64,000 nucleotides of DNA from Hyphomicrobium sp. (GTDB taxonomy: Bacteria; Pseudomonadota; Alphaproteobacteria; Rhizobiales; Hyphomicrobiaceae): contig PERI01000003.1 in NCBI GenBank assembly GCA_002928515.1, positions 186,001 through 250,000 on the forward strand, given 5' to 3'. Position 1 is the first letter of the stretch, and each line of letters starts with the position of its first letter. The translations under genes and the position numbers were made by a program. Positions 37,301 through 51,154 of the stretch are shown piece by piece. Under the pieces are notes generated by a model, which saw nothing but the letters and a program-made list of their open reading frames with translations, was not told where the DNA came from and did not search any database.

Positions 37301-38298
37301 ACGACATACGCGTTTGATCGCGAAACACCTGCAACACGCCAGGATATTGGCTTGGTAGTTTTCGTATCTGTCTCAACGCCGGGATGTAACTCGCACGCGC
37401 CCGCGCGCAAATCCGTTCCGAACCAACTGACGATTAATGACACCGACGTCGCACTGGGAAGCGACGATTGCAGTTGATCGGCTGCCACTTCCCAATCGGT
37501 CGCCCCCAGCAACGTATGCACGTTTTCCGACGACGACACGCCCGGCAAAATCGATCGATGCACCGGCTCGGTCGCATAGACGAATTCACCCGAACCCGGA
37601 ATCATCACGACAGCGCGGATGCCGCCATCTTCGACTTCCGTGCTGCGATAAACTTCAAACGACAATTGCGGCACGCGATTGCCGTACTCGGCGAGCGCCA
37701 AGCGTTCGAACACTATATACGCCACACCGCGATAGGCTGGCACATTGTCCGCGCCGTCACGCGCGACGATCAAACTGTCCGGTTCTTGCGTTTGCGTGCC
37801 CGTGTAGAGCCGCCAAACCAAGCGCGATAATTCAATTTCGCGGCCATCTGCCCACACGCGACCGATGCGCGTGATTGGGCCTTCGCACAAAGCTACTGCG
37901 AAGTTCGCGTAGTAGCGATATTCCGTTGTGCGCGCTCCGCCGCCACCCAGGGCACCGCCTTTGCCAGCGCCTGACGCTTGTGACGACCGGATGACCTCTT
38001 CATCGAACTCCGTTGCCCAGATCACCTGACCGCCAACGCGAGCGCGACCATAGAGGCGCGGGATCGGCGCGCCTTCCGTCGAACCCGTCACCTGCAAATC
38101 GGACAGGCGCGGCCCTTCGACAGCACGATTTTGCCCCGATGCGCCAAACAGCGCGTTATCGACCACAGACCCGGCCAACGCTCCGAGCTGGCCGCCAAGT
38201 GTCGCGCCTGAAATCGTGGCTCCGAGAATCCCAAGGCCAGCCGGAAAGATGCTGCCGCCCACAGCCGCTCCAACCGCTGCCAGCGCCAGCGTTGCCAT
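34342..38298 (-). CDS. GTA g15: tail-tip megatron protein with TIM-barrel domain
   Basis: Largest protein of the cluster (1318 residues), the baseplate/tail-tip host-specificity protein of the GTA particle. A Gly/Ala-rich hydrophobic N-terminus (residues 1-50) starts the protein, then a tail-hub-like region. The GTA TIM-barrel-like domain lies at about 430-740 (GADWSEYFGHQPSDGSGDVYFHL; FWLMEIGCPAVDKGANQP). A phage tail protein domain follows near 800-950, and an RcGTA g15-type C-terminal region (SVSELGLELNWRSG; SPVHVRGVRSG). It ends 42 bases before the lysis gene and starts three bases after the g14 stop. The barrel may act on cell-wall or surface glycans during DNA delivery; this is inferred from the family. 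Confidence 0.93.
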   Translation of the reverse strand: MATLALAAVGAAVGGSIFPAGLGILGATISGATLGGQLGALAGSVVDNALFGASGQNRAVEGPRLSDLQVTGSTEGAPIPRLYGRARVGGQVIWATEFDEEVIRSSQASGAGKGGALGGGGARTTEYRYYANFAVALCEGPITRIGRVWADGREIELSRLVWRLYTGTQTQEPDSLIVARDGADNVPAYRGVAYIVFERLALAEYGNRVPQLSFEVYRSTEVEDGGIRAVVMIPGSGEFVYATEPVHRSILPGVSSSENVHTLLGATDWEVAADQLQSSLPSATSVSLIVSWFGTDLRAGACELHPGVETDTKTTKPISWRVAGVSRSNAYVVSQREGRAAYGGTPSDQTVIAAIRDLNARGLGVTLTPFILMDVAEENSLANPYGGASQPPYPWRGRITCHPASGQPGTVDKTTAAASQIAAFVGTVSPAHFSISGDSVVYSGPNEWSYRRMVLHQAYLAKVAGGVEAFQIGTELRGLTQVRSGADAYPFVAALISIADDVRTILGPETKILYGADWSEYFGHQPSDGSGDVYFHLDPLWASPNIDAIGMDVYWPLSDWRDGRSHLDYQAGASSIYDLDYLKGNLHGGEGFDWYYASQADRDAQVRTPITDGAGKPWIYRFKDIKSWWLNPHYNRPGGVESATPTAWVPQSKPFWLMEIGCPAVDKGANQPNVFVDPKSSENALPYYSRGQRDDLMQARFLRAFSEAFDWESEGYVEGLNPISTLTGSRMVSRDHIFVYCWDARPYPAFPNEITYWSDGTNWPLGHWINGRLDSSGLDDLVRQILRDYDFEDFSQGALNGTVPGYVIDRVMSARDALQPLELAYFFDSIESEGQIVFRHRGQSAWPETVTEADVVESSANAALYSLTRGQETELPASAKIRFISGDDDYSQAVAEARRLTGASGRVAQADIAIVLDDGLAGAIAESWLFETWAARERSTFALPPTALAIEPGDVVTLDVGGREYTVRVTEISEHGAREIEARSIDVDVYERTGLPSRTVAPSQPVQIGAPEVAYLDVPTWSEGADATSGYVAALQQPWPGSVAVYSSAQASGYQLRALVPASATLGETLTDLSPGPEGRIDRASRLQVRLTQGALTSVDDVALLGGANLAAVRNASGGWEIFQFQSAALIAAQTYELSGLLRGQFGTEQDMADVVAAGATFIVLDAAVTPIPLSVSELGLELNWRSGPGNRDIGDASYETVPFRFTGAGLRPLSPVHVRGVRSGADDVTVKWTRRTRVGGDSWELAEVPLSEDSERYEIDILDGASVKRTLTATTPTVGYTAAQQTADFGAVQSSIALEVYQMSALGGRGTGRAATV

Positions 38299-38301
38299 GT
38301 C

Positions 38302-38769
38302 CTACACTCCACGATGCACATTTGTGCACTCACGATTTGGAAATCTAAATTGTCCGGCGATACGTCGCCGCCACCACGACGACAGCGCGACTTCCGACAC
38401 CGGCCCGCCTTCCATCGCGTGAATCATCGTCGTGTCTCTGGCGATGATGGCTGCATGTTTGGCAACCGTGTGCGCTCGCAAGCGAAACACGACGACATCG
38501 CCTGGCGAAACCTCAGCTTGCGAAATCGCTGTCATGTGTCGGCTCGCGCCGTCGAGCATCGTCTCGATACCGCTCGCTTCTGCCCAATCGCGGCTATAAT
38601 GCATCGCGATATTCGGCTCGCCTCCGTACACGTCGCGCCAGACGCCGCGCACAAGGCCAAGACAATCGCAACCCACGCCGCGCACACTCGCCTGATGATG
38701 ATAGGGCGTGCCCAGCCACGACCGCGCCATCGCAACGATCGCATCGCGAGATACAACGGGGTGTTTCAT
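38302..38769 (-). CDS. GTA g14: NlpC/P60 cell-wall peptidase of the tail
   Basis: Tail-associated cysteine peptidase that cuts peptidoglycan during DNA entry. Catalytic Cys is in GVGCDCLGLVRGVW (about residue 31) and His in VAKHAAIIARDTTMIHAM (about 103). At 155 residues it is typical of the phage cell wall peptidase family next to g13 and g15. The frame opens at 38862, but the ATG at 38769 shares a base with the stop of g13 (TGATG) and removes an implausible N-terminus. Translational coupling with g13 is therefore likely. Confidence 0.93.
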   Translation of the reverse strand: MKHPVVSRDAIVAMARSWLGTPYHHQASVRGVGCDCLGLVRGVWRDVYGGEPNIAMHYSRDWAEASGIETMLDGASRHMTAISQAEVSPGDVVVFRLRAHTVAKHAAIIARDTTMIHAMEGGPVSEVALSSWWRRRIAGQFRFPNRECTNVHRGV

Positions 38770-39629
38770 CACGACCTGCGCGCAACTTTGGTCAGGTAAG
38801 GATTGCCGGGCATCGCCGGAAAGGCGCGAAAATTCACACCGTTTGAAAATTGCGATTTGCACGTCTCGAAGCGTTTATCGCATCCAGCGGTCACCGTGAT
38901 TGTCGTGCCCGCCTCTGGTGGCGCATCGAGCGCTGTCCAGAGATCCAGTGTCACCACGCCGGCAATTTTCGTATGCGCTTTAATCTCGATAGCGCGCGCC
39001 GTTGCCTCGCCGGATGTGAACCGCACTAGGCCACGCGTGAAATGATCGTGGGCAAACGCATCCAAGCCGCTGACGATCAACCGGCGCGCACTCAATGCTT
39101 CAACCACCACGCCAAAGCCGCGCCAAGCCGCGTTTTCTAAATCGATCCCACAGCGCGCATCGCCGAGATCAGCATCGCACGTCAGTTGATAAAGCCGCCC
39201 TTTGGGCTGCTGCAAATAGTGTGCGAGGCCGCGTACCTCTGCGGTAAACGCTGTGCCCGTGCGGCGGACTTCTCCGATACTGCCTGACCGCATCAACACG
39301 CGCTGCTCGGGTGCCTGCCAATTCACGCGATAAATCGAAATCGCCGCATCGTCATAGAGACCGGCTGCTAAATCATTTTCGTTCAACGCCGCCGATGACA
39401 ATGCGCCGCTGACTTCGAGATTATCGACCGATAGACCAACGCCATCTTTGATATCGCTGGCGGTAAAGCCTGCTGCGGCCTCAAATGCCACGCCATCGAA
39501 TTCCACATTGCGATCGTGATCGGTAAAGCCCTGCACGACGCCATCAGCGCGCACCAGTTTCCAGCACCAACACAGCGTCGTGGTACCGCTGTCGAGATGC
39601 GCTTGAAGGTCCGCGCCGAGCTGTTTCAT
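38769..39629 (-). CDS. GTA g13: DUF2163 / BR0599-like tail-hub protein
   Basis: Structural protein of the distal tail, 286 residues. N-terminal DUF2163 domain (LCWCWKLVRADGVVQGFTDHDRNVEF) and C-terminal phage_BR0599 domain with the Cys-containing end CDKRFETCKSQFSNGVNF then FPAMPGNPYL, which is diagnostic. The cysteines near residues 140-160 and at the C-terminus match the iron-sulfur-type ligands proposed for this family in RcGTA. ATG overlaps the g12 stop (ATGA). Operon position between g12 and g14 confirms the call. Confidence 0.94.
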   Translation of the reverse strand: MKQLGADLQAHLDSGTTTLCWCWKLVRADGVVQGFTDHDRNVEFDGVAFEAAAGFTASDIKDGVGLSVDNLEVSGALSSAALNENDLAAGLYDDAAISIYRVNWQAPEQRVLMRSGSIGEVRRTGTAFTAEVRGLAHYLQQPKGRLYQLTCDADLGDARCGIDLENAAWRGFGVVVEALSARRLIVSGLDAFAHDHFTRGLVRFTSGEATARAIEIKAHTKIAGVVTLDLWTALDAPPEAGTTITVTAGCDKRFETCKSQFSNGVNFRAFPAMPGNPYLTKVARRS

Positions 39630-40264
39630 AGCCGGATCTCTACGACGGGAATATTCGGGATCGCGCCATGCTGGAAGCCCGACATATTGACTTCAAGTTT
39701 GTCACTGTCGAAGCGCACAGGCACATCGAACTCAAATCCTGCGCTCACGATTTGCCCCGCGCCGGGCACATGTCCCGGTAGAAATGTCACTTCACCCGTT
39801 GTCGGAGCTACGCTGAAATGCAGTCCCGACGTTTGCACAACGCCCGCCACCGCGACCTTCACGGTGCCCGCCAACGGCTTTCTGATCGTGCGCGTCCACG
39901 GCGCGTGAGCGCTGCCGTAAACTTTCTGCAATTGAAAAGTCGTTTGCGTTCCAGTGCCGGTGCCGATCACTTGATCCATCGCCGACGTCACGCCGCTTGG
40001 CGGACACGATTTCCAATCGGCGTGATCGCGCCAGCGAAACCCATATAGTCGCCCGCGCCGCTCCTCGAAAATAGCAATGACGGCATTCAACGCATCGAGT
40101 GACTTCACACCGTATCCTGCGTTGTAGCTTCGGCGGCTATCGGCCCATCGGCTGTTGCGTTCTTCAAAGCCTGATCCCAGGACGACGACATCTGTGCGTC
40201 GTTCAGGACCACCTTGCGCGCCGCGCGAAATTTCGCTCGGAAATCGAATGTCATGAAAACTCAT
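39626..40264 (-). CDS. GTA g12: DUF2460 distal tail protein
   Basis: Distal tail protein, 212 residues, of the DUF2460/TIGR02217 family. Visible marks are FHDIRFPSEISRGAQGGPERRT at the start of the protein (with FHDIRFP and GGPERRTDV as the conserved core), YNAGYGVKSLDALNAVIA and a GFRWRDHADWKS segment. It forms the ring joining tail tube and hub in RcGTA. ATG at 40264 lies 29 bases after the g11 stop. No anomalies. Confidence 0.94.
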   Translation of the reverse strand: MSFHDIRFPSEISRGAQGGPERRTDVVVLGSGFEERNSRWADSRRSYNAGYGVKSLDALNAVIAIFEERRGRLYGFRWRDHADWKSCPPSGVTSAMDQVIGTGTGTQTTFQLQKVYGSAHAPWTRTIRKPLAGTVKVAVAGVVQTSGLHFSVAPTTGEVTFLPGHVPGAGQIVSAGFEFDVPVRFDSDKLEVNMSGFQHGAIPNIPVVEIRL

Positions 40265-40293
40265 GTTGGATGCTTTCGCTCACCGAGACCGAC

Positions 40294-40902
40294 TTACAAA
40301 TTGCGCTGACCGAGTGCCGTCGCGCGCGCAATCATCGCGGCGACTTGCGTTTCAGAACGCCTGAAACTTTCCGCGTCCGGCGTGGAAATATTGATCGTGA
40401 TCATGGCGCCACCGCTGCCGGTTGCCGCCACTCCCAACCGTCCATCGGGTCCGCGAGCCAATGGCATGATTGCTTCCGCGCCGCGCTCGCCAGCGATGCC
40501 CTTCAATCCGCCCGCTAAGGGAAACGCAATCGGGCTCGCAATGACGCCACCTTTTGCGAACGGCACCGGCGCGCCTCGCTTCAACACGCCGCCATTCGCG
40601 AAAGCCAATCCGCCAGAGAAGGCACCTTGCAGCAAGCTGCTGAAACCTTGCTCCAGTGGTTTGAATGCGGCCTTCAATACGATCTGCGATAAACTCACAG
40701 CCAACGACTTGAACACATCGCCGAGCGACCGTCCTTTGATGGCAACGCCCTCGAATGCATTGATCAGCGCGTTGGAAAACTGCGCACCCGCTCGGCTCGT
40801 TGAGCGCAGTTTTTCTTCAAAGCCAGTGGTATCGGCGCGGATCACGACATCCCAGGTCTCGAACGGTGCCGCCGATGACGGCGTCGAGGGAAAGTCGGTC
40901 AT
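40294..40902 (-). CDS. GTA g11: short tape-measure protein
   Basis: Sets tail length. At 202 residues it is short, which fits the short GTA tail. The N-terminal part is helical (ADTTGFEEKLRSTSRAGAQF). A membrane-active Gly/Ala/Phe-rich segment follows (SLLQGAFSGGLAFANGGVLKRG), then GGVIASPIAFPLAGGLKGIAGERGAEAIMPLARGPDG with the family core GIAGERGAEAIMPL. It overlaps the g10.1 stop by 4 bases (ATGA). Length and motifs agree with RcGTA g11. Confidence 0.92.
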   Translation of the reverse strand: MTDFPSTPSSAAPFETWDVVIRADTTGFEEKLRSTSRAGAQFSNALINAFEGVAIKGRSLGDVFKSLAVSLSQIVLKAAFKPLEQGFSSLLQGAFSGGLAFANGGVLKRGAPVPFAKGGVIASPIAFPLAGGLKGIAGERGAEAIMPLARGPDGRLGVAATGSGGAMITINISTPDAESFRRSETQVAAMIARATALGQRNL

Positions 40903-41081
40903 AGTGCGTGCCTCTCATCAGGATATTGCTGCATCAATTCGGCGAGATCCGTTTTTGTCGGTGCGTCGCTGTATCCGCTGAGACCCAATCGTCCACGTAT
41001 GGCTGCATCAAACTCACGCGGCGTCATTTGCCAGAATACGAGCGGAGCGAACCCCAACACGCCTAGCCCGATGGCCATCAC
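40899..41081 (-). CDS. GTA g10.1: small tail assembly chaperone (rcc01693 type)
   Basis: A 60-residue protein equal to the phage tail assembly chaperone family found between g10 and g11 in alphaproteobacterial GTAs. Core motif: LGFAPLVFWQMTPREFDAAI. It starts with GTG at 41081, overlapping the stop of g10 (GTGA); an ATG at 41078 is in the same frame. The protein is short enough to be missed by annotation. Such pairs of chaperones are often made as a frameshifted product in phages; here they are separate, coupled genes. Confidence 0.88.
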   Translation of the reverse strand: MMAIGLGVLGFAPLVFWQMTPREFDAAIRGRLGLSGYSDAPTKTDLAELMQQYPDERHAL

Positions 41082-41536
41082 GTCGTTCCAGGGAAAGGGG
41101 CGCGCGCTGCCGCGCCACCTCCGATGCTCGATGTGGAACTCGTATGACCCGTCACGTCAGGGTCGAGATCACGCGCAGCGCTTCCGCCCCCAAATCCTTC
41201 AACGGGCTCCGCCTGTTCATGCGCACTCGCGCCTCCGAAGGTCGCCGTCAGCAAGCGCGATACGACCTCAACGAAGCCTGCGGCAGCGCCATCGGCTTGC
41301 ATGTGCGAGACGTCGGCGTCCGTCACCGCGTGGCCGGCCCCGCGCAATCCCGCGCCAATTATCTTGACGCAGTCGCGCGCAGATAAGCGGCCTTTTTCAA
41401 AACGTGCCGTCAGCGCCAGCATGTCTTCGTCACCGAATGCATGTTCCAATTCTGCGAGCGCACCCAGCGTCAGCACCAGGCGATGTCGAACGCCATCGAA
41501 GTGCGCTTCGATCTCGCCGCGATGTACGTTAGCCAT
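41078..41536 (-). CDS. GTA g10: tail assembly chaperone
   Basis: Gene transfer agent family protein (GTA_TAC type), 152 residues. Core: MANVHRGEIEAHFDG, then LVLTLGALAELEHAFGDEDM and LSARDCVKIIGAGLRGAG. The first 95 residues are the usual family domain; the C-terminal 50 residues are a low-complexity Gly/Ala/Ser tail absent from short homologues. The frame opens at 41587, but the ATG at 41536 has GGAG six bases upstream and starts exactly where the family does. The start lies 48 bases after the g9 stop. Confidence 0.9.
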   Translation of the reverse strand: MANVHRGEIEAHFDGVRHRLVLTLGALAELEHAFGDEDMLALTARFEKGRLSARDCVKIIGAGLRGAGHAVTDADVSHMQADGAAAGFVEVVSRLLTATFGGASAHEQAEPVEGFGGGSAARDLDPDVTGHTSSTSSIGGGAAARAPFPGTT

Positions 41537-41583
41537 TTTAAACTCCGCTTTTCGTTTCGATACTGAGGTGGTTCGCGTGGACC

Positions 41584-41997
41584 TCAAGCAGCGGTAAAGC
41601 TCAATTCGCCCGCACTCTCCAACGACAACTCGAATGCGACTTCACCATCGTGTCGCCCGCTGAATTCCAGCGACGAAATCTGAAACGGACCTTCGATGGT
41701 GCCGAAGTCCGGAACGATGACCTGCCATGGGCGTATCGTGCTGTTGAATGCGTAATCGCGCACGGTGGCGTCGGATGCTGCATCCTTGAAGACGCCGCTT
41801 CCTGTCACGCGCGCTGACTTTGCCCCAGCGCCCGATAACAATTCACGCCATTGTCCGGCGCTCTCGGTGTGCGTCACATCCACGGTCTCGGCGTTCACCG
41901 CAAACGTGCGTGAGCGCAGGCCTGCGATTGTCGTGAATGCGCCTGCGCCCGTCGTATCGACCTTCAACAGAAGGTCTTTGCCCTTTTGTGCTGCCAT
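41584..41997 (-). CDS. GTA g9: major tail tube protein
   Basis: Tail tube protein of 137 residues, TP901-1-like phage major tail family. Motifs: AAQKGKDLLLKVDTTG at the start, TVDVTHTESAGQWRELLSGAG and FQISSLEFSGRHDGEVAFELSLESAG, which give the beta-rich tube fold. It lies 91 bases downstream of g8; the gap carries a fragment of the GTC(A)TCCCGG repeat family. No anomaly in length. Confidence 0.93.
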   Translation of the reverse strand: MAAQKGKDLLLKVDTTGAGAFTTIAGLRSRTFAVNAETVDVTHTESAGQWRELLSGAGAKSARVTGSGVFKDAASDATVRDYAFNSTIRPWQVIVPDFGTIEGPFQISSLEFSGRHDGEVAFELSLESAGELSFTAA

Positions 41998-42031
41998 GTT
42001 TTGAAATCCTCAGTTGTCGTCTTTTTACTGT

Positions 42032-42072
42032 GGCTCCCGGATGACGTTGCGCGGCAACGTCTCCGTGGTGAC
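42032..42072. repeat. Partial copy of the CCCGGATGAC repeat in the g8-g9 gap
   Basis: The stretch from GGCTCCCGGATGACG to GTGAC resembles the right half of the repeat at 43706-43830 (both have CCCGGATGACGT, then GGCAACG and CTCCG/GTCCGG). It contains a small stem, GACGTTGCGCGGCAACGTC. It appears truncated. See the findings for the family. Confidence 0.6.
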
Positions 42073-42088
42073 AGCCTCAATGCAAAAA

Positions 42089-42496
42089 TCACATAGGTTC
42101 CGTCACCGCGCGATAGCGCGTGATGCCGTGATATGTTTCACCATCGGGATCGCGTCGGGCATCTGAAAACTCATGTCGTAAATTCACCAGCCGATGCCCG
42201 TCGAGGGCCAATGCCTGATCGTGTAGGGCCGCCTGCGTTGCGGCCATGATTGCATCGGTTTCCTTGCGCCCCAAGGCGCGCGACCAAACATGCAACGTCA
42301 CAAGGTGCTCGTGCCCCACATCCGTTGCCGTTGACCAATCGCGCTCCGAGGTCTGTGCAAATACCAAATATGGAAACTCGGCGCGCGTCGGCACATCATC
42401 GTAAATGCGCGCGCCTCCTAAGGCCGCCGTTACGGCCACGTCGTTGGCAAGCGCGGACACTATTGCCGTTCGCACGGCGGTGCTGGCACTCATCAT
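42089..42496 (-). CDS. GTA g8: DUF3168 tail terminator/completion protein
   Basis: A 135-residue protein of the DUF3168 family, which closes the head-proximal end of the tail. Motifs: VRTAIVSALANDVAVTAALGG, IYDDVPTRAEFPYLVFAQ and LVTLHVWSRALGRKE are characteristic. Two adjacent ATG codons (42496 and 42493) are possible starts. It follows a small ORF (42517-42693) that lies between g7 and g8 here. Confidence 0.92.
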   Translation of the reverse strand: MMSASTAVRTAIVSALANDVAVTAALGGARIYDDVPTRAEFPYLVFAQTSERDWSTATDVGHEHLVTLHVWSRALGRKETDAIMAATQAALHDQALALDGHRLVNLRHEFSDARRDPDGETYHGITRYRAVTEPM

Positions 42497-42516
42497 GTTA
42501 TGAGCTTCCTCACTAT

Positions 42517-42693
42517 TTATCGCGCAGGGTCATCATCTTGACTGACGCGTGCGACGGCACTGTCGCGGTCGAGCTGGTCGCGGCGATGTCGTCTCTCGGC
42601 TTCGCGACGACGCACGGCATCGGACGCGAGTTTCGCCGAGCGCGCTGCCGTGCGCCCGCTACCAATGCCTGAAACGTTGATTTGCAATTTCAT
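42517..42693 (-). CDS. Small basic protein encoded between GTA g7 and g8
   Basis: A 58-residue, strongly charged protein: MKLQINVSGIGSGRTAARSA, then an Arg/Glu/Asp-rich helical stretch (RRREAERRHRRDQLDRD). Its ATG at 42693 overlaps the g7 stop by 4 bases (ATGA), as most adjacent GTA genes here do, and its stop lies 20 bases before g8. This coupling argues that it is translated. I recognise no family. It may be a remnant of an HK97 gp10-like protein, whose start is similar in style, or a GTA accessory protein specific to this group. Confidence 0.5.
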   Translation of the reverse strand: MKLQINVSGIGSGRTAARSAKLASDAVRRREAERRHRRDQLDRDSAVARVSQDDDPAR

Positions 42694-43022
42694 AGATCGC
42701 GCTCTTCGACCGGGCAACGCAGCCAACGTCCGCGATCATCCGGGTCAATCGCGCCGCGTATGTCGAACACGCGTGTTCCAAAAGTGATGCGCATGTCCGG
42801 TGTCACGTCGGCGCGAAAGCGCATCCACACATCGTGCGTTGCGCGACCGGCGACCCGATCTAGCGCAAAGCCTTCGTCGCTGCCGCGCGTCCAGATCGCG
42901 GCGTACACGTCGGCGACGGGCTGCCATATGCTTGTCGCGCCACCGGCGCCATCATCTGTGCGCACCGCGCGTTCGATGACCACGCGATGACGCAAATCAC
43001 CAATCGTAATCGGCAATGTCAT
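42690..43022 (-). CDS. GTA g7: head closure (head-tail adaptor) protein
   Basis: Phage head closure protein of the SPP1 gp16-like family, 110 residues. Motifs: GDLRHRVVIERAVRTDDGAGG at its start (core RHRVVIE), WQPVADVYAAIW, MRFRADVTPDMRITFG and FDIRGAIDPDDRGRWL. The ATG at 43022 overlaps the g6 stop by 4 bases. It seals the capsid portal after DNA filling. Confidence 0.92.
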   Translation of the reverse strand: MTLPITIGDLRHRVVIERAVRTDDGAGGATSIWQPVADVYAAIWTRGSDEGFALDRVAGRATHDVWMRFRADVTPDMRITFGTRVFDIRGAIDPDDRGRWLRCPVEERDL

Positions 43023-43594
43023 AGGCGGATTTTCCGAAAGGGCTGGATCAAATCAGAGACAGCGTCGGGTATGCGCGCGGACACCGAGCCTATCTCGACC
43101 GGATCGCGGTGCTCGTACCAATGTGCCGTCAGCATGAGTATGGCGTGCTTCAAAGGCGCTGGCACACTTGCAGCCGTTGCACCGAAGCCTGCAAGAATAT
43201 CGATCTCGATACCGTTGATTGCAACGCCTGGATCGGGTCGCACGCCGCCGCCCCACACCAGACGCGGCGGCTTTGAGGCCAGATCAACGAGATAATTGGT
43301 CGGCGACATCGCAACCGGTGCGCCGAGTGTGTTTTTCACTCTGACTGCGCTGACCGCCTGTAGCGGGCTCAATGGAATGTCCACGGCATCGCCTTTCGGC
43401 CATCGGTCGAGCAACAGTGTCCATGACTGCGCAATCAACGCGATGGAGAGCGACGCCTCCACATGCAGGCGCGATGTGAGCACGAGGCTTGCTATCAGAA
43501 CATCTTCCGACGTTTCCGTGATGCGCAAATGCGCTTTCGCTTCCTCCACCGTTACCGGTTCAACCGCCGGACCGCCCGTCAGCATCAATGCCAT
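43019..43594 (-). CDS. GTA g6: head-tail connector protein
   Basis: Adaptor protein of the phage gp6-like / phiE125 gp8-like connector family, 191 residues. Motifs: GGPAVEPVTVEEAKAHLRI, SWTLLLDRWPKGDAVDIPLSPLQ (core DIPLSPLQAVSAV), and ILMLTAHWYEHRDPVEIG. It is the first gene after a strong terminator that separates it from the capsid gene, so its expression level is probably lower than that of capsid. No start alternatives of note. Confidence 0.92.
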   Translation of the reverse strand: MALMLTGGPAVEPVTVEEAKAHLRITETSEDVLIASLVLTSRLHVEASLSIALIAQSWTLLLDRWPKGDAVDIPLSPLQAVSAVRVKNTLGAPVAMSPTNYLVDLASKPPRLVWGGGVRPDPGVAINGIEIDILAGFGATAASVPAPLKHAILMLTAHWYEHRDPVEIGSVSARIPDAVSDLIQPFRKIRL

Positions 43595-43619
43595 CAGTGT
43601 CGTCCTTTATGTTGTCCCG

Positions 43620-43660
43620 AAAAAAAAATGCGGGGCCATCACAAGGGATGACCCCGCATT
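43620..43660 (-). terminator. Strong intrinsic terminator between capsid (g5) and g6
   Basis: On the minus strand AATGCGGGGTCATC pairs with GATGGCCCCGCATT around a loop of about six bases, giving a 14-pair stem with one G-T type mismatch. It is followed at once by nine T (43620-43628 as A on the plus strand). It lies 181 bases after the capsid stop and 26 bases before the g6 ATG, inside the GTA operon. Partial read-through would yield more capsid than connector and tail proteins. Confidence 0.85.
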
Positions 43661-43705
43661 CGATCCGCACAGGCGGGAGGGGAACCTGCGCTGGAATTCA
43701 TTTCT

Positions 43706-43830
43706 CATTGTCATCCCGGCCGAGCCGTCATTCACGGCGAGAGCCGGGACCCAGACTTTAGATGCACGATGCGTGTGGTGACCCTGGGTCCCGGATGACG
43801 TCGCACGGCAACGCGTCCGGGATGACAATG
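43706..43830. repeat. Inverted-repeat element between g5 and g6
   Basis: A 125-bp element bounded by exact 14-base inverted ends, CATTGTCATCCCGG (43706-43719) and CCGGGATGACAATG (43817-43830). Inside are a second pair, GCCGGGACCCAG and CTGGGTCCCGG-like arms. It lies in the gap between the capsid stop and the terminator. It resembles small palindromic chromosomal repeats common in Hyphomicrobiales. Confidence 0.8.
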
Positions 43831-43840
43831 GGTGCTAGAA

Positions 43841-45085
43841 TTAGCTCGCGCTGAACTTCAACAGCTTGATCGCGTCGAAGTCTTGCACGCCGCCACCGAC
43901 GCGCTTGGTCGTGTAGAACAGGACATACGGCTTGGCGCTGTAAGGATCGCGCAACACACGAATGCCAGCCCGATCGACGATCAGATAGCCACGCTGGAAA
44001 TCACCGAACGCGATCGACAAGCTATCGGTGGCAATGTTGGGCATGTCTTCACATTCTGCGACCGGATATCCGAGCAGCGTCGGCTGCTCTCCCGGACCAT
44101 TCGATGGCTGCCAGAGATAATTACCCTGTCCATCCTTCAATTTGCGCACCGCTGACTGTGTGGAGCGGTTCATGACGAACGTGCCATTCGCACGATACGC
44201 CGCCTTCGCGGCATAGACGAGATCGAGCAGCTTGTCGCCGGGATGGGTCGCTGCAAAGCCACCGGCCACACCCGTCGCGATGAAGCCGAGATTGCCCCAG
44301 CTCCAGCTCGCATTCGCGACCGTCGGATAGGTGATGAAGCCCTTCGGCTTGTTCACGCCATCGCCGGTGACGAAGGCTGTGCCTTCCTGTTCGGCAAATG
44401 CAATGCGCACTTCTTCCGCCAGCCATTCGTCGATGTTGACGATGGCATCGTCGAGGATCGCCGATGACGCGGCGGGCATGGCGTACAGTTCCATGGTCGG
44501 GAACTGCAATTCTTCCAGCACCGGCGTTGCCGTTTGTGGACGCGCCGCCGTTTCACCGGCCCATCCTGTCACTGCGCCGCTGGTTGCGAACGGCCGCTTA
44601 TAAACACTGCCCGACACCTGGCGCACACCGGCAATCGCGCGAATGGGCGAGATCGCTTTCAGCGCGCGGTTGACGGCCGCCTCAGTTTCAGCGGGGACGA
44701 GATAACCGCCATCGGGACCCGATCCGACCGACAGTGCTTTTTCTTCTAGCCGGGTCATACGACCCGTGTCGCCCTTGCGCACATAAGTCTCAAACGCTGA
44801 TTTATGTGCGAGCGACATAGCCGGATCGCTGCCGCCTTGCGCCAAGTGTGGACGCCCCGCTTTCAGCGCGAGTTGGTCCGACACCCGCTTGGTTGCATCC
44901 AATGTTTCCTCGATGCGCGACAGCTTTTCCGCTGTCACGGCATCTTCCGCGCCGCGCCGTTCGATTTGCGAAAGGCGTTGATCGTTGGTTTCTTTGAACG
45001 CTTCGAAGGCATCCATAAAATCTTCGAACGCGCGCGCCGTCTCGCCACCGCCCGACTTCGTTTCGAGGTGTATTAGCTCAGTCAT
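43841..45085 (-). CDS. GTA g5: major capsid protein (HK97 fold)
   Basis: Capsid subunit of 414 residues. The N-terminal 100 residues are a coiled-coil-rich scaffold (delta) domain (FEDFMDAFEAFKETNDQRLSQIERRG; core SQIERRG), normally removed by the g4 protease. The mature HK97-fold part follows from about SVGSGPDGGYLVPAETE. Other marks: WLAEEVRIAFAEQEGTAFVTGDG and LGYPVAECEDMPN. The frame opens at 45130, but the ATG at 45085 has AAGGAG five bases upstream. A short inverted-repeat element lies on each side of the gene. Confidence 0.95.
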   Translation of the reverse strand: MTELIHLETKSGGGETARAFEDFMDAFEAFKETNDQRLSQIERRGAEDAVTAEKLSRIEETLDATKRVSDQLALKAGRPHLAQGGSDPAMSLAHKSAFETYVRKGDTGRMTRLEEKALSVGSGPDGGYLVPAETEAAVNRALKAISPIRAIAGVRQVSGSVYKRPFATSGAVTGWAGETAARPQTATPVLEELQFPTMELYAMPAASSAILDDAIVNIDEWLAEEVRIAFAEQEGTAFVTGDGVNKPKGFITYPTVANASWSWGNLGFIATGVAGGFAATHPGDKLLDLVYAAKAAYRANGTFVMNRSTQSAVRKLKDGQGNYLWQPSNGPGEQPTLLGYPVAECEDMPNIATDSLSIAFGDFQRGYLIVDRAGIRVLRDPYSAKPYVLFYTTKRVGGGVQDFDAIKLLKFSAS

Positions 45086-45134
45086 ACGTGCTCCTTTGTC
45101 TATCCTTGCTGTCTCAAGTGATTTCTCCACACAC

Positions 45135-45270
45135 CGTCATCCCGGCGAAGGCCGGGACCCACGGCTAGTTTCAGAACTTGTGCTGCTCGTTGGTCGCGAC
45201 GAGTTCGCGCTTCACTCAAATTCTGTGTAACGGACCCTTGTCGTGGGTCCCGGCCTTCGCCGGGATGACG
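45135..45270. repeat. MITE-like element with 29-bp perfect inverted ends, between g4 and g5
   Basis: Positions 45135-45163 and 45242-45270 are exact inverted copies over 29 bases (CGTCATCCCGGCGAAGGCCG and following, mirrored by CGTGGGTCCCGGCCTTCGCC and following). The 78 bases between them hold a further small stem, CTCGTTGGTCGCGACGAG. The element is 136 bp. It lies just upstream of the capsid ribosome site. Perfect arms suggest recent spread or strong selection. Confidence 0.85.
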
Positions 45271-45292
45271 AGATTGAGGCAATGGTCGTGAA

Positions 45293-46015
45293 CTAAACTC
45301 TCGGTGCTGTGACTTTCATCATCCGCTGTGCTGCGCGTCTCATACGAGCTGCCAACACCGCGTCGTCATCGAGGCCAAGGCGCGCATCCCGCAGCGCCTT
45401 CAGACCTTGGAAGCCACCGCGCAAAACAGCGCGCGCTTCCATGCGCGTCAGCCCAGCGTCCCGCGTGAGCCAGCGTTCAAATTCGCGTTCACTTGTGCTG
45501 TGTCGCGCGATCGGCTGCCGCTTCACGGCTCCAACCCGCGCGCCCGGCAGCATCGGAAACGTGACGATGGAAATTTCCCAGAGATCGACTTTTTCCAGTC
45601 GCCGGATACCTGAGCGTGCATCGCGCTTGCCGCGCACTGCTTTGAAGCCAATCGACAAGCCATCGAGTGCGCCCGCGCGCATCAGCGCCAATATTTCTCT
45701 CGCGCGTGCCACCGCCGTCATCAATCGACCGCGCACATATAAACCATTGGCGTCTTCGCGGATCTCGTCCCACACGCCAATCGGTTCAGCTGGATCATGC
45801 TGAAACAGCATTTTGATGCGCTGTGTGCCGCGCGATTTCAAACTTTCGGCGAAGGCGCCCGGCATGATGACATCGCGACCCAGATCCTCGCGATTGAACA
45901 AGCTCGCGTAGCCTTCGAATACGCCGTCATCATCGACGGACTTCAAATCGAGCGGCGTCCCAAGCGAGCAGTCGCGCGCGCCCGCAGGCAGCATGATGTG
46001 TCCAGCCAGCGCCAT
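45293..46015 (-). CDS. GTA g4: prohead protease (HK97 family)
   Basis: Capsid maturation protease, 240 residues. The fold core is VFEGYASLFNREDLGRDVIMPGAF, the catalytic His lies in IKMLFQHDPAEPIGVW, and the Ser in GALDGLSIGFKAVRGK. A C-terminal extension of about 60 residues (STSEREFERWLTRDAGLTRMEARAVLRGGF; core EREFERWLTRDAG) is typical of GTA g4. I took the ATG at 46015, with GGGG five bases upstream; a GTG at 46021 is in frame. It lies 63 bases after the portal stop with no separate g3.5 gene. Confidence 0.94.
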   Translation of the reverse strand: MALAGHIMLPAGARDCSLGTPLDLKSVDDDGVFEGYASLFNREDLGRDVIMPGAFAESLKSRGTQRIKMLFQHDPAEPIGVWDEIREDANGLYVRGRLMTAVARAREILALMRAGALDGLSIGFKAVRGKRDARSGIRRLEKVDLWEISIVTFPMLPGARVGAVKRQPIARHSTSEREFERWLTRDAGLTRMEARAVLRGGFQGLKALRDARLGLDDDAVLAARMRRAAQRMMKVTAPRV

Positions 46016-46078
46016 AAGCACCCCGTTGCAAAACTCAGTTGTTGTTCGTGTTTGGCGTCGCGCTCGCGTCGCGCGCCG

Positions 46079-47341
46079 CTACGTCTTCACGCCATACCCA
46101 ACCGCCGCGCGTTTTTCGTCGTCGGTGAGGAACGACACGGCTTGCAAGCGCGTCCATAGCGCATCGCGTTCGCTGCTCAATGCTGCCACCTGATCGATGT
46201 CGGGGCGAAGCTCTAGTCGCGCATTTTTGTTTGCGCTTGGCGACTCTCCTGCGGGAAGCCGGCCGCCAATCGCGGCGTCCTGAGCACTCGGCGCGAGCCA
46301 GCCGCTCAAAGCCTTCGCCGTTCGGTTCACCAACGGCAACACCGTCTGTCGCCAGAAGCAGCGCTGCGCCTCCTGATAATTCGCATAGGTATTGTCGCCA
46401 GGAATACCGAGCAACATCGGCGGCACACCCAGCGCCAACGCGATCTCGCGCGCGGCAGAATTTTTCGCCTCGATAAAATCCATATCCTTCGGCGACAGCG
46501 ACAGCGGCTTCCAATCCAATCCGCCTTCGAGCAGAAGCGGACGCCCAGCATGACGCGCGCCTTGGAAGCTCGCTTCCAATTCTGTGCGCAAGCGCTCGAA
46601 CTGTTCTGTCGTCATCTGGCCGTTGCTTGCGCCATAGACCAAAGCCCCGCTCGGCCGCGCCGAATTATCCAGCAGCGCCTTGTTCCAGTTCGACGCCGTG
46701 TTGTGAATATCAATCGCCGATGCCGCCGCCTCGATTGGGCTCATGCCATAATGATCGTTGGCGGGATGAAACAATTTCACATGCAAAATGGGCCGCACGC
46801 CGGGTGCGACGTCTTCGACGAAACGCACCGACTGTCCGCCCGCGGTATATTCATAGCCTTCCGGCCATCCGTCCGCGCCGGGGATGACCTTCATGCGATC
46901 CGGCCGCAGCGCGTGCAATTCGCGCACGCGCCCATCGAGCGTCACGGCTTCGAGATACGCGTTGCCCGCAACCAGCAGAAATCCGTACCAGGCTTCCAGC
47001 AGATCGGTGCCTGTTTGATCGTGACTGGGCTGGCGCAAGACATCGAGCAGCGGATGCTCGTCGATCTCTTGCGTGCCATCGTAGAGCAAAAGTGGGATCG
47101 ACGCTGCCGCCTCCGCGATCATGCGCACGCTGCGATAGACAATCGCGTTCTGCATAAATCCTTCGCGAGCGAACGCACTGTAATCGCGCGGGCTCCATAC
47201 CGGCTGGCCCAAATGTTCGACCGCGATCAGCGCGCCCGTGCGGCTGGCTTTTGCATCATCCGGTCGTGTCATGGCATCGCGTATATGATCGTTGCCATTG
47301 CCGCGCCGAAATGACTGCCACACGCTTGCGATCCGCGACAT
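46079..47341 (-). CDS. GTA g3: portal protein
   Basis: Forms the DNA entry ring of the GTA head; HK97-type portal, 420 residues. Motifs: SVWQSFRRG, NAIVYRSVRMIAEAAASIPLLLYD, GNAYLEAVTLDGRVRELHALRPDRM (core LHALRPDRM), PANDHYGMSPIEAAASAIDIH and LALGVPPMLLGIPGDNTYANY. The start at 47341 has AAAGGA seven bases upstream; longer in-frame starts (to 47437) would run into the repeat at 47388-47534. Near residue 358 an extra peptide, GGRLPAGESPSANKN, is encoded by a palindromic element also found in g2. Confidence 0.94.
   Translation of the reverse strand: MSRIASVWQSFRRGNGNDHIRDAMTRPDDAKASRTGALIAVEHLGQPVWSPRDYSAFAREGFMQNAIVYRSVRMIAEAAASIPLLLYDGTQEIDEHPLLDVLRQPSHDQTGTDLLEAWYGFLLVAGNAYLEAVTLDGRVRELHALRPDRMKVIPGADGWPEGYEYTAGGQSVRFVEDVAPGVRPILHVKLFHPANDHYGMSPIEAAASAIDIHNTASNWNKALLDNSARPSGALVYGASNGQMTTEQFERLRTELEASFQGARHAGRPLLLEGGLDWKPLSLSPKDMDFIEAKNSAAREIALALGVPPMLLGIPGDNTYANYQEAQRCFWRQTVLPLVNRTAKALSGWLAPSAQDAAIGGRLPAGESPSANKNARLELRPDIDQVAALSSERDALWTRLQAVSFLTDDEKRAAVGYGVKT
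46224..46286. repeat. Palindromic element inserted in frame in g3
   Basis: About 60 bp related to a stretch in g2 (48714-48776): 31 of 39 central bases are identical. The core is an imperfect palindrome at 46235-46271 with outer arms TTGGCG (46237-46242) and CGCCAA (46264-46269). It is read through in the portal frame as GGRLPAGESPSANKN, between a region ending SAQDAAI and the conserved LELRPDIDQV. Confidence 0.75.
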
Positions 47342-47387
47342 GGGCGTGTCCTTTGCAAAACTCATAATGGAAACGTGAACCCTACTT

Positions 47388-47534
47388 GTCATCCCGGACG
47401 CGATGCACAGCAGCGCGATCCGGGACCCAGCGCACAAAGCGGCGCAGCCTCGATGTTATTTTGTGTCTTCGACGAGTCTTGCGCTGGATCCCCGACATGC
47501 GCGACGGCTTGCGCCGCGCTGTGTCGAGGATGAC
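47388..47534. repeat. Repeat element between g2 and g3
   Basis: Begins GTCATCCCGGACGCG and ends GAGGATGAC, with an inner pair GCGATCCGGGACCCAGCGC and GCGCTGGATCC. The ends match those of the repeats at 43706-43830 and 45135-45270, but the inverted arms are less perfect. It fills the whole gap between the terminase stop (47548) and the portal ribosome site. Confidence 0.65.
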
Positions 47535-47547
47535 GTTCGCTCTTGCG

Positions 47548-48951
47548 CTACAACATCCGCACCGACGGTCGCGCAGCTTCGCTCAACAGCAAATCCGTCA
47601 CCGCCCACACCAGCGCATCGACGCGGTCGGGACTTTTGCCGCCGACCAAGCCATCGCTGCCGAACGCGCACATCTGATCTTCCAACGCTTCAAACCGGCC
47701 GACATGCGCCACGCGACCTTCCGCATACAAAGCGGCGACCGGCTCGGCGCGAACCCACTTGCCGCGTGTCGCTCTGACTTTCGCCACCGGCAAATTCTCT
47801 CTGAACTGTTGCAGCACGCCGACCACGAGATCGCCGCCCTGGTTCACCTCCGCCACCATCCGGTCGGCGGCAAAATCATCGTAGGCGGCCAACGCCGCGC
47901 GTGCCCACACATCGGGCGTGCGCCCCTGCACCGTGCGATCGGCCAGCACATACGCGCGGCCATCGACGCCCAAACCGGCCACCACAATTCCGCAGGCGTC
48001 CGAGCGCGCTGTCGCCGTCACCGGCGGATCGACCGCGACCACGATGCGCCGCATCTCCGGTGCTGCCGCCACGCGCGCCTCGTCGATCCACGACCGCTGC
48101 CACAGCGCATGCCCGACATCCTCGACCAACTCGCCGAGCAATTCCTGCCGCCCCAAATGCGAACCCGAATAGCGCCGCGTCATCTCCGCCAAAAAGGTCG
48201 GCGCCAGATTGTCGGCGTTGTCCGCCGTCGATAACCGCGTCGTCACGGTCGCGGCATCGGCCATCAGCAATTTCAAAAACGCGATCGCGCGCGGTGTCGT
48301 CGTCGCCACCACGTGCGGCGTCTCGCCCAAGCGCAAGCCAAACTGCAACATGTCCCACGCACCTTGCGCGTCGCGCCACTTGGCGACCTCATCGCACCAG
48401 GCGGCATGAAACTGCGGACCGCGCAAAGCTTCCCGCTCGTCTGCGGAAAACATTTCCGCCACCGTTCCGTTCGGCCACGTCAAGCGCCGCTTCGACGGCT
48501 CGAACACCGGCCGCTCGTGCGGCGCATGAATAGCAAGCAATCCCGACGCGCCTTCGATCATCACGTTGCGCACGTCGCTCATCGTTTTGCCGACGAGCGC
48601 GATGCGCAGTACTTTTTTCTTCGATGCCAGCTTGGCACACGCCCGCGCGCGCACCCACTCGGCCCCCGCGCGCGTTTTGCCCGAGCCCCGACCGCCAAGT
48701 ATCAACCAAACTCTTTTTCTGGCGTCGGGCGACTCCCCGGTGGGGAGCCGGCCGCCCGACGCGGAGCACCGGAGCTTGTCGCAAGAGAATTCACGGGGAA
48801 ATAACTGATCTTCGCGCGCCCACATCTCCCAGTCGTATTGCATGAATTCGAGTTCGCGCTCACTCAGCGCCGCCAGCGCGTCGGCGAGGTGTCCGTTGTC
48901 GATTGAGGCGTTCAAGGCGTTCCGCAATCTCGCGGCGTAAGTCTTCCGCAT
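47548..48951 (-). CDS. GTA g2: terminase large subunit
   Basis: ATPase and nuclease that packages DNA into GTA heads. Walker A is LILGGRGSGKTRAGAEWVR (about residue 82) and Walker B lies in FHAAWCDEVAKW. The RNase-H-like nuclease shows RRIVVAVDPPVTATARSDACG (core VAVDPP) and MVAEVNQGGDLV, and DRVDALVWAVTDLL near the end. The ATG at 48951 gives a 92-base overlap with g1; a later TTG could be the true start. Just before Walker A an extra peptide GGRLPTGESPDARK comes from a palindromic element. All catalytic motifs are intact, so the insertion need not destroy function. Confidence 0.94.
   Translation of the reverse strand: MRKTYAARLRNALNASIDNGHLADALAALSERELEFMQYDWEMWAREDQLFPREFSCDKLRCSASGGRLPTGESPDARKRVWLILGGRGSGKTRAGAEWVRARACAKLASKKKVLRIALVGKTMSDVRNVMIEGASGLLAIHAPHERPVFEPSKRRLTWPNGTVAEMFSADEREALRGPQFHAAWCDEVAKWRDAQGAWDMLQFGLRLGETPHVVATTTPRAIAFLKLLMADAATVTTRLSTADNADNLAPTFLAEMTRRYSGSHLGRQELLGELVEDVGHALWQRSWIDEARVAAAPEMRRIVVAVDPPVTATARSDACGIVVAGLGVDGRAYVLADRTVQGRTPDVWARAALAAYDDFAADRMVAEVNQGGDLVVGVLQQFRENLPVAKVRATRGKWVRAEPVAALYAEGRVAHVGRFEALEDQMCAFGSDGLVGGKSPDRVDALVWAVTDLLLSEAARPSVRML
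48714..48776. repeat. Palindromic element inserted in frame in g2
   Basis: Related to the stretch at 46224-46286 in g3. Palindrome core at 48724-48760: outer arms GTCGGGCG (48724-48731) and CGCCCGAC (48753-48760), inner arms ACTCCCC and GGGGAGC around GGT. It is read as GGRLPTGESPDARK between FSCDKL and the Walker A strand VWLILGG of the terminase. Confidence 0.75.
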
Positions 48952-49522
48952 GACGCAGCGCCTCCTTGTCTTTGGCGTTCGCCCGCTTGCTCGCGCCGTT
49001 CGAAATATCGCGTTGCATGTCCACGGCCTTCTCCAAACTGTTGACCATTTGCGACAGCGCGCGCGAGGCCCGTTCCCGGTCCTGCGATGACACGCCCTTT
49101 TGCTGTTCGAGTTTCGTCAGTTCCAGATCGATGGTGTTATAGACCCGCTGCACCAGATCCTTCGGTTTAGCGGCTGTCTTCTTCTTGGCTTGCGCGGAAA
49201 CGTCAGCGACGATGGCCGACGCAGGATCCGTGACGATCTCGTCCGATGCCGGTGCAATAGATAAATCGCCATCGTCGATCGGATCGATGGCGAGATCATT
49301 TTCAGTTTCGACGATCTTTGGCGCGGCGATCTTTTTCACGCGCCGCGTCATGCGCGGCTTGGAAACTTTTGTCGTGCGCTTGTTTGCGACTTTCGTGGTT
49401 TTCTTTTTTGCGACTTTCACTTTCGCAGGTTTTGTCTTCGCTGTTGTCGTTGTGCGCTTGGCTACCGGTTCGCTGTCCTCAAGCGAGCGGACAAGCGTCA
49501 ACCGCGCCGGACCTTTCGCCAT
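48860..49522 (-). CDS. GTA g1-like (small terminase position) with histone-tail-like N-terminus
   Basis: First gene of the GTA cluster, in the small-terminase position. The C-terminal 100 residues are helical and coiled-coil-like (LVQRVYNTIDLELTKLEQQKG; ALRHAEDLRREIAERLERLN), as in RcGTA g1, which binds TerL. The N-terminal 75 residues are Lys/Thr/Ala/Val-rich (KTKPAKVKVAKKKTTKVA) like histone H1 or AlgP tails, followed by an acidic linker. I chose the ATG at 49522; the frame opens at 49594 and no ribosome site is clear. It overlaps g2 by 92 bases. Assignment rests on position and coiled coil; the basic tail is unusual. Confidence 0.7.
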   Translation of the reverse strand: MAKGPARLTLVRSLEDSEPVAKRTTTTAKTKPAKVKVAKKKTTKVANKRTTKVSKPRMTRRVKKIAAPKIVETENDLAIDPIDDGDLSIAPASDEIVTDPASAIVADVSAQAKKKTAAKPKDLVQRVYNTIDLELTKLEQQKGVSSQDRERASRALSQMVNSLEKAVDMQRDISNGASKRANAKDKEALRHAEDLRREIAERLERLNRQRTPRRRAGGAE

Positions 49523-49772
49523 GCGAAGCAACCCCGCTGATCGCGCATCAAAGACTTGAGCTGTGTTGTGAAATTCCAGCGACGACCGGCGCATTGCGCC
49601 TCGAATGGCCTTATCGGCCTAGTCTTCGCATCATATCCAAATAGTACCCGAGGAGCGCCGCGCTGTCAATAACGAATACTTGGTAAACTTGGATTTATAC
49701 AGTAAATCTAGATATTTATATTTGCTACACTGTAGAATACATCTAGTATAACCCACCCCGAAACAGCGGGGA
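49523..49772. other. AT-rich gap upstream of GTA g1, probable promoter region
   Basis: From about 49660 to 49750 the sequence is far richer in A and T than its surroundings (for example TCTAGATATTTATATTTGCT). No gene is visible. It should contain the promoter of the GTA operon. I could not place -35/-10 boxes or a TTAA-N7-TTAA CtrA site with confidence. An IS1595-type transposon is inserted at its upstream border. Confidence 0.5.
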
Positions 49773-50944: not shown

Positions 50945-51154
50945 ATGTCACGTGGCAAATTCCTTTCACTTGAAGAAGCCCGCGAAACCGGGGCCTTCAA
51001 GCAATTCTGCAAAGAGCATCCGAGCGAAGCGGATCGTGACCGCTTCCTCAAGCTCCTTAGCGCGATGTCGCAAGGCGTTTTAGAAGAACCGGAAACATCG
51101 CAGCCGGATCGTGCCGCAGGTTCCAGCGGAACTCGAACTCGCCGAGGTACTTAG
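50945..51154 (+). CDS. Small protein in the IS1595 transposon
   Basis: A 69-residue hydrophilic protein (MSRGKFLSLEEARETGAFKQ, then FCKEHPSEADRDRFLKLL). AAGGGT precedes the ATG and the gene lies 12 bases after the passenger gene, so they may be one transcript. Its last third is antisense to the 3' end of the transposase gene (98 bases) and reads as low-complexity SSGTRTRRGT. I recall similar small proteins next to IS1595-type transposases, which would make it an accessory gene of the element; this needs a search. Confidence 0.6.
   Translation: MSRGKFLSLEEARETGAFKQFCKEHPSEADRDRFLKLLSAMSQGVLEEPETSQPDRAAGSSGTRTRRGT

Follow-up and report, generated by a model that had tools for sequence, protein, structure and literature searches.

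The insertions in the terminase (g2) and portal (g3) genes of the Hyphomicrobium sp. GTA belong to a palindromic repeat that is dispersed in genomes of the Hyphomicrobium lineage. The unit is a 41-nt hairpin, which an A-rich tail extends to about 50 nt, and the window, i.e. the whole stretch of 64,000 nucleotides that was analysed, holds two copies of it. It is a case of palindromes inserted in frame in bacteria other than Rickettsiales, at multiple places within a single conserved protein machine and in many species. The arms at orthologous sites have been exchanged and still pair, so that the way in which bacterial palindromes stay symmetrical can be tested.

The two copies in the window

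Both copies are within the GTA structural cluster, whose genes are putatively numbered by their order. The features are as follows.

34342..49594, minus strand: GTA structural cluster g1–g15, housing both copies (g2 and g3 by Pfam)
47548..48951, minus strand: g2, GTA large terminase (Terminase_6N/6C), 467 aa
48722..48762, minus strand: element hairpin in g2 (fold; covariance model, 68.7 bits)
48708..48721, minus strand: A-rich 3′ tail of the g2 copy, CAGAAAAAGAGTTT, of which the family consensus takes in the first 9–10 nt only
46079..47437, minus strand: g3, GTA portal (Phage_portal, HK97 type), its start probably the ATG at 47365
46233..46273, minus strand: element hairpin in g3 (pairing; covariance model, 66.7 bits)
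46219..46232, minus strand: A-rich 3′ tail of the g3 copy, AAACAAAAATGCGC, of which the family consensus takes in the first 9–10 nt

Both bit scores are from a covariance model built with the two window copies included. The hairpin has 10-bp outer arms, an asymmetric bulge (5 nt/1 nt) and a 6-bp inner stem. The g2 copy, with arms GCGTCGGGCG/CGCCCGACGC, bulge GCCGG/T, inner stem CTCCCC/GGGGAG and loop ACC, folds as drawn (z −3.9 as RNA, −3.7 as DNA). The g3 copy, with arms GCGATTGGCG/CGCCAAGCGC, is partly decayed, having 9 of 10 outer pairs and 5 of 6 inner-stem pairs, with one mismatch. Folded as a 59-nt RNA, it has a minimum-energy structure other than the hairpin (z −1.5), and as a 41-nt DNA the outer stem is retained while the inner stem re-pairs (z −2.0).

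A palindrome was originally predicted here and its position and arms were right, though the hairpin is longer than first claimed. The likeness between the copies is exactly as had been claimed, 31 of 39 in the best 39-base stretch in the core register, and the encoded peptides are indeed of one kind (SASGGRLPTGESPDAR in g2, AIGGRLPAGESPSANK in g3). The two double changes between the arms CGGGCG/CGCCCG (g2) and TTGGCG/CGCCAA (g3) were likewise confirmed. A 29-base consensus is present at 2 places in the window, the g2 and g3 ORFs, with 0 expected (100 shuffles).

The g2 peptide (approximately residues 63–78) precedes strand 81–86 and the Walker A loop, as the original prediction had it. It is modelled as a disordered loop and is the sole internal stretch with pLDDT <50. 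The g3 insert is between helix 327–362 and strand 384–388 (428-aa numbering), and in structure models both inserts are low-confidence loops.

A dispersed family

The family consensus is C-GCGCNNNNCG-GCCGG-CTCNNN-NNN-NNNGAG-T-CGNNNNGCGC-AAnCAAAA, and conservation begins 1–2 nt ahead of the 41-nt hairpin and ends about 10 nt past it in a set of 152 copies (from 60 fetched regions chosen largely around copies, 87 of the copies being from GTA-gene regions). The genome of origin has 11 core matches, and 16 matches to the covariance model at E ≤0.1. The search of relatives that had been suggested found the core in 21 of 22 genus genomes, at 7–60 copies in each carrier, with 0 control matches in all 22. 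(A looser motif search gave 15 places, yet 4 control matches too.) In the wider family the core is present in 7 of 14 other genomes; beyond it there are single matches only, nearly all chance-like. Because one genus genome, G004, has 25 copies without a g2 match, the repeat is independent of the GTA. Rfam gave no family match for 7 copy-bearing loci at E up to 1, only one sub-threshold miRNA match away from the copies.

The covariance model was built on a seed alignment of 25 copies, and favours paired copies. Since 24 of the 25 rows came from a scan that required pairing at six or more of 8 arm positions (five scan rows and the decayed L009 copy were left out), a covariation test on that alignment is largely circular.

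Inserted and empty sites

The claim that the element was inserted, and is not ancestral to GTAs, is supported by the model finding copies in just 4 of 80 g2-bearing loci, the best of 134 relatives, some of which (L031 for example) stop short of the site. The four (L023, L024, L025 and L030) are taken as the same loci as L270, L269, L267 and L276, and were counted once in the tallies over 15 genomes. The site is empty in eight aligned g2 rows, including three from Hyphomicrobium sp. and one from Filomicrobium, and insertion-free orthologues, whose existence was to be checked, were found for both g2 and g3 (the L033 row of one alignment appears out of frame at its end). Comparison of filled and empty sites by eye revealed no clean target-site duplication, the homologues being too far apart.

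The same peptide in most g2 and g3 proteins had been named as what would make it ancestral sequence. This does not hold for GTAs generally, but does in part within the genus. There, 19 other genomes have a g2 match, and with G013, G015, G016 and G019 left out as partial or split (the G016 match has two in-frame TGA codons), a same-orientation copy is found just before Walker A in 14 of the remaining 15. The g2 insertion is therefore old in the clade, and not recent. In all 15 fetched regions g2 is uninterrupted, in a single frame from query residues 1–3 to 462–467; for g3, 6 of the 15 regions have HSPs in different frames. Ka/Ks is 0.06–0.22 across 17 gene pairs, showing the GTA to be under purifying selection. 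The in-frame insertions are themselves evidence that selection still acts on the GTA of the genus.

Terminase and portal loops accommodate additions of about 16 up to about 80 residues, so that nature has in effect performed insertion scanning on the two proteins. Among 126 matches placed relative to GTA genes, 30 are outside all stop-to-stop spans and three are in two overlapping spans, and the g1, g4, g6, g9 and g10 spans may contain leader DNA before the true start; only 42 copies in g2 and 12 in the g3 C-terminal loop are surely intragenic.

Pairing and arm exchange

It had been proposed from two paired changes that the hairpin itself is maintained. The 152 copies were chosen by core sequence with no choice on arms, leaving them free of pairing selection, and Watson-Crick pairing holds at the seven free arm pairs in 89–96% of them, as against 38–59% if the arms were independent. 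There is no mispair in 111 of the 152 and one in 27. Covariation is also evident among 15 copies at the orthologous g2 site, where 44 double-change cells compare with 13.6 ± 2.8 in shuffles (0 of 500 as extreme), though two of the five measures did not stand out, shuffles reaching the number of double-changed pairs in 59 of 500 cases and the pair types in 74 of 500. Both tests bear the proposal out.

Mutual information is 0.70–1.22 bits for the seven free arm pairs, and at most 0.05 bit between arm positions and one inner-stem position. In one g2 copy, L267, the 5′ and 3′ arms come from two different common types. At the same site the arms of related genomes differ wholesale, as between G003 and G007 (Ks 0.49 in g2). 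Arms at the orthologous g2 site resemble each other only slightly more than arms of randomly drawn copies do (identical in 6.7% versus 1.4%), and for inner stems the figures are 4.8% versus 10.3%. The 41-nt hairpin is open in all six frames in 133 of 152 copies, compared with 82 of 303 flanking stretches.

Placement and strand

On four one-contig chromosomes the density of copies in the GTA, within bounds set by the analyst for density and strand counts alike, is 31–72 times that elsewhere. Among 85 copies sampled outside it, 77 fall between genes, as judged by a home-made codon score in regions chosen around known copies. (Neither the hotspot nor the mostly intergenic placement of the other sampled copies was visible from the window alone.) Of 54 classified copies, 23 are in convergent spacers, which account for 7.8 kb of the 66.6 kb of spacer in all; 42 of the 54 are downstream of a co-oriented gene, 19 of these 42 at most 20 nt from the stop codon. 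One copy, at L277, is near the end of a uvrA.

On the same four chromosomes 135 of 154 copies outside the GTA are on the strand opposite dnaA, in both contig halves, and in a fifth genome, G005, 47 of 60 are so placed with the GTA included. Among GTA copies the figure is 19 of 31. Replichore polarity is rejected as the cause since both halves of the four chromosomes agree, and the rule seems to be neither leading/lagging nor replichore. Several drafts lack an overall bias (G007 6/6, G008 7/8, G014 4/3 and G019 7/8 among them), presumably owing to arbitrary contig orientation. In G020 and G006, the two sampled, compositional skew has an absolute part of matching sign. An rRNA search (RF00177) matched none of 5 genomes, which probably reflects the search itself or missing stretches of sequence, and was not used for replication direction. 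The one-strand polarity, if it stands, weighs against the account favoured below. It is conceivable, though improbable, that the hairpins are deposited or retained by a process able to distinguish the two strands of the whole circle, and that GTA copies, set by open-frame selection, escape it; candidates would be whole-chromosome transfer in which one strand passes as single-stranded DNA, or replication that is strongly one-sided in this budding bacterium.

Origin and maintenance

The repeat is probably a dispersed REP/RPE-like element copied by a process that acts on the hairpin, with GTA loops tolerating in-frame insertions. It behaves as a non-autonomous element, found mostly right after genes and occasionally within one. 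New copies and arm sequences may be laid down by template switching or gene conversion between copies, possibly aided by a mobilising enzyme, acting on the folded hairpin; such a process would give joint change of both arms and independent assortment of arms and inner stem. (No mobilising enzyme was found in the one class searched, Y1, PF01797.) Because GTA proteins are still selected, the intragenic survivors would be only in-frame insertions in surface loops, of which GTA loops appear to tolerate many.

Arm covariation could also come from selection on an RNA or DNA hairpin. Such selection might keep the hairpin as a functional element, an mRNA 3′-end protector or a protein-binding site, by successive compensatory mutations, the GTA copies being translated regulatory hairpins. 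This alternative is possible but the less probable account. The copies after stops of co-oriented genes and in convergent spacers fit it, as does the core CGGCCGGCT...GAGTCG, fixed in the 25 seed copies, though most of these were found by that motif and the observation is partly circular. However, arms at one site in related genomes (G003/G007) differ wholesale and not by single pairs, and GTA copies are in either orientation to the gene, which argues that no single RNA hairpin is kept. An intrinsic terminator was rejected from the sequence: the tail is A-rich, not T-rich, in the element's sense, and the T-run of the other strand is before the hairpin.

That the peptide was co-opted in the GTA packaging motor, as a loop extension tuning TerL or the portal and selected as protein, is unlikely. 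Retention of the pre-Walker A copy in the same orientation and frame in the genome of origin and 14 of 15 others, with Ka/Ks of g2 remaining low, would suit co-option. Against it, the 12 copies in the g3 C-terminal loop (7 in one orientation, 5 in the other) encode unlike peptides, G021 has only opposite-orientation copies at its pre-Walker A site, no insert occupies the post-Walker A site in the genome of origin, G007, G010, G014 and G017, and both inserts are modelled as low-confidence loops. As one loop accepts copies either way round and the reading frame varies between sites, the encoded peptide is probably without function of its own. Ancestral protein sequence or chance likeness, with no element at all, accords with the nearly always filled g2 site within the genus, but is refuted by the dispersed family in 21 of 22 genus genomes, the 76 of 80 g2 loci free of copies and the chance expectation of none in the window, and has virtually no probability left.

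Comparison with known systems

Integron attC sites are single-strand hairpins kept by structure over sequence, with an asymmetric bulge; what the Hyphomicrobium repeat appears to share with them is a resemblance only. Like MITEs it is non-autonomous, dispersed and palindromic, but it is shorter (MITEs are described as 70–300 bp with 15–30 bp TIRs; PMC3733652).

REPs of the GTAG/CGTC super-families are described as short, mostly intergenic palindromes in convergent and unidirectional spacers, often <20 bp from an ORF 3′ end, with some inside ORFs, uvrA among them, and RAYT often adjoining GTAG REPs (Di Nocera et al. 2013, PMC3733652). In the broad sense the Hyphomicrobium repeat is REP-like, being short, multi-copy and mainly intergenic near 3′ ends, with the GTA copies as the exception. 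Membership of those super-families was considered and rejected, as the tags are absent from the 152 copies (best fixed position 2–6 of 152, for each tag and its complement); unlike in them, arm sequence is free while pairing is kept. RAYT/IS200-type mobilisation is not supported, with the Y1 transposase missing in 21 of 22 genus genomes and present in one (5 of 14 in the control rings).

The likeness to Rickettsia palindromic elements (RPEs) noted in the original prediction is one of working alike and not of membership. RPEs are described as palindromic repeats in frame within ORFs likely encoding functional proteins (PMC3733652), with orthologues having the insert at the same place (PMC3767692). 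The Hyphomicrobium repeat too is palindromic and in frame in ORFs (for g2 in 15 of 15 regions). It differs, by those descriptions, in length (about 50 nt versus 100–150 bp; PMC3767692), in its bacterial order, in having no CGTC end tag such as that described for R. conorii RPEs (PMC3733652), and in being mostly intergenic in the samples while its intragenic copies crowd into the GTA. The best reading is that it is a new REP/RPE-like family of a known general kind.

Two copies in a gene transfer agent cluster

The alphaproteobacterial gene transfer agent (GTA) cluster lies on the minus strand of the window. Pfam identifies the g2 product as a terminase, and both Pfam and NCBIfam identify that of g3 as an HK97-type portal; among the matches listed, Hyphomicrobium records are nearest by g2 comparison. 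The 29-base consensus of the hairpin element copies in these genes is matched in the window at two sites only, with none expected:

48728-48756, within the minus-strand cluster, copy in g2
46239-46267, within the minus-strand cluster, copy in g3

Just past the g1 end of the cluster, at 51057-51923, is a transposase-like ORF, presumably of ISXO2/IS1595 type. In their best stretch the two copies share 31 of 39 bases, the same count as in the original prediction of their likeness, and R1, a covariance model built from an alignment of 25 copies, finds two clear copies in the window.

In the AlphaFold model of the g2 product (mean pLDDT 85.4, 37 sequences), residues 58–75 are the only internal segment below 50 pLDDT, and they adjoin strand 81–86 and the P-loop. 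The g3 model is weaker (mean pLDDT 70.6, 21 sequences). Its insert lies within a link joining helix 327–362 to strand 384–388, with blocks averaging 53 and 50, in a model that has low confidence in other stretches as well. Both inserts are low-confidence loops in the models.

Orthologues that lack the insert do exist. It is missing from g2 in eight regions of relatives (L026–L029, L032, L033, L047 and L060), genome G009 and L027 have nothing inserted in the C-terminal loop of g3, and R1 finds copies in four of 80 g2-bearing loci (the best 80 of 134 relatives). Within the genus, 20 of 22 genomes, the present one included, have a g2 match, and the g2 regions of 15 of the other 19 were compared. 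Their g2 genes hold 42 copies, 30 before Walker A, divided equally between gene-sense and antisense (15 each), the other 12 occupying the loop that follows the Walker A helix; in G009 the block preceding the pre-Walker A copies was unrecognised by the search pattern used. In g3 the C-terminal loop has 12 copies in 11 genomes, the region near the N terminus 12 in 10 genomes, and one copy is elsewhere. At least three kinds of peptide are encoded: GRLxxxES, PRxAAGSRNASRxAP and, read off the opposite strand, GDSxxxSRPPG. In L275 (genome G011) the g2 loop after Walker A also carries, in frame beside the hairpin element, another repeat-looking peptide of unlike sequence, SPSPLGERVGVRG...PPSPQGEKE.

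g2 is in a single frame in all 15 regions; g3 HSPs are spread over more than one frame in six of the 15. As Ka/Ks is 0.06–0.22 in 17 pairs, the GTA genes are under purifying selection despite the inserts. The g2 match in genome G016 (G016:C2:276324-277331) has two in-frame TGA codons, and so, judging from sequence, the terminase there may be broken.

Maintenance of the hairpin

Two paired arm changes between the g2 and g3 copies had been taken to suggest that the hairpin itself is kept, and this generalises. Among 152 copies selected solely for their core, Watson-Crick bases at arm pairs 3 to 9 occur in 89–96%, versus 38–59% expected from column composition, and 82–96% have paired bases at the variable inner positions, versus 39–55%. 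For arm pair 10 it is 77% versus 71%, and from pair 11 onward pairing is at chance level. The seven free arm pairs are free of mispairs in 111 of the 152. At one orthologous g2 site, before Walker A, the 15 copies have 95.8% of cells paired and double changes in 44 cells, where shuffles give 13.6 +/- 2.8 and slid registers no more than 9. Neither the count of pairs with a double change (59 of 500 shuffles) nor the number of pair types (74 of 500) is extreme in these orthologous copies. The covariation means, therefore, that one gene position holds differing arms, GCGTCGGGCG, GGCGCTTCCG, GCACCCGGCG or GCGCCTTGCG in different genomes, with the matching partner nearly always present. The worn g3 copy of the window counts against hairpin upkeep.

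A dispersed family

In its own genome seven places match the 29-base consensus with at most three mismatches (no control hits), a looser motif matches 15, some overlapping (four control hits), and R1 finds 16 copies at E 0.1 or better. The search for the core in relatives, which the original prediction had called for, revealed a dispersed family. Of the 22 genus genomes 21 contain the core-only pattern CGGCCGGCTN10GAGTCG, each of them with 7 to 60 copies, and there are no control hits. The pattern matches 28 of 397 genomes sampled from the order: all seven sampled from the genus, seven of 14 from other genera of the family (69, 36, 17, 7, 2, 1 and 1 copies), and 14 from other families with one hit each. 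In those other families a reversed control pattern likewise matches scattered genomes, and only the single hit in G060 looks like a true copy. In genome G004, which lacks a g2 match, there are 25 copies, so the element is independent of the GTA.

Outside the GTA, in sampled regions with genes called by codon score, 77 of 85 copies are intergenic, three are within genes, three near gene ends and two at edges; genes that carry a copy internally or at their end include those for MazG (in two genomes) and for a DUF2793 protein, and a uvrA, at its end. In the MazG genes (L208:1-573 and L256:6555-7439) the element is antisense, in the similar context ELEEAL. Of 61 copies in G020 and G006 samples 54 could be classified: convergent spacers hold 23, and 42 come after a co-oriented gene. 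Dense, largely intergenic clusters occur in L277 (G001:C1:2244001-2260000, near uvrA), L279 (genome G002) and L280 (genome G003), with 9, 6 and 7 model hits.

On four one-contig chromosomes the 14–16 kb GTA carries 10, 8, 3 and 10 core copies, a density 31 to 72 times that elsewhere. We think that loop tolerance and an old common insertion underlie this excess, though they would account for its size only in part.

Strand polarity

On the same chromosomes 135 of 154 copies outside the GTA are on the strand opposite dnaA (34/45 in G001, 23/27 in G002, 47/50 in G006, 31/32 in G020), with the same preference in both halves of each and no switch; inside the GTA it is 19 of 31. T-A skew, in samples many of which were placed on copies of the element, is positive in 18 of 20 from G020 (L200–L219) and negative in 15 of 20 from G006 (L244–L263), the sign expected since that contig is flipped. 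In both it holds a single sign around most of the chromosome, a sign that tracks element orientation, while GC skew shifts along the chromosome. On a control 2.55-Mb contig from another genus of the family 7 of 13 samples are positive. Strong overall strand bias is absent from several draft genomes of the genus and from other genera rich in copies (31 and 38; 23 and 13 by strand), where contigs may be arbitrarily oriented. An SSU rRNA family search matched none of five genomes (G001, G002, G005, G006, G020), probably through a limit of the search or of the sequence it covered. Among the loose ends, this polarity of the whole chromosome is the boldest.

Relation to known palindromic repeats

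In titles and abstract openings of the open-access papers listed on Hyphomicrobium repeats or GTAs, and on the palindromes, terminase and portal of GTAs, the element is undescribed. REPs within genes, and REP placement, are set out in passages of PMC3733652 that make no mention of Hyphomicrobium, and RPEs at conserved sites in the abstract and passages of PMC3767692. Set beside REPs and RPEs by these descriptions, the hairpin element is a real, new family of their general kind. Two features are unusual: at fixed positions one sequence replaces another while the hairpin persists, and within genes the element has its hotspot in the GTA.
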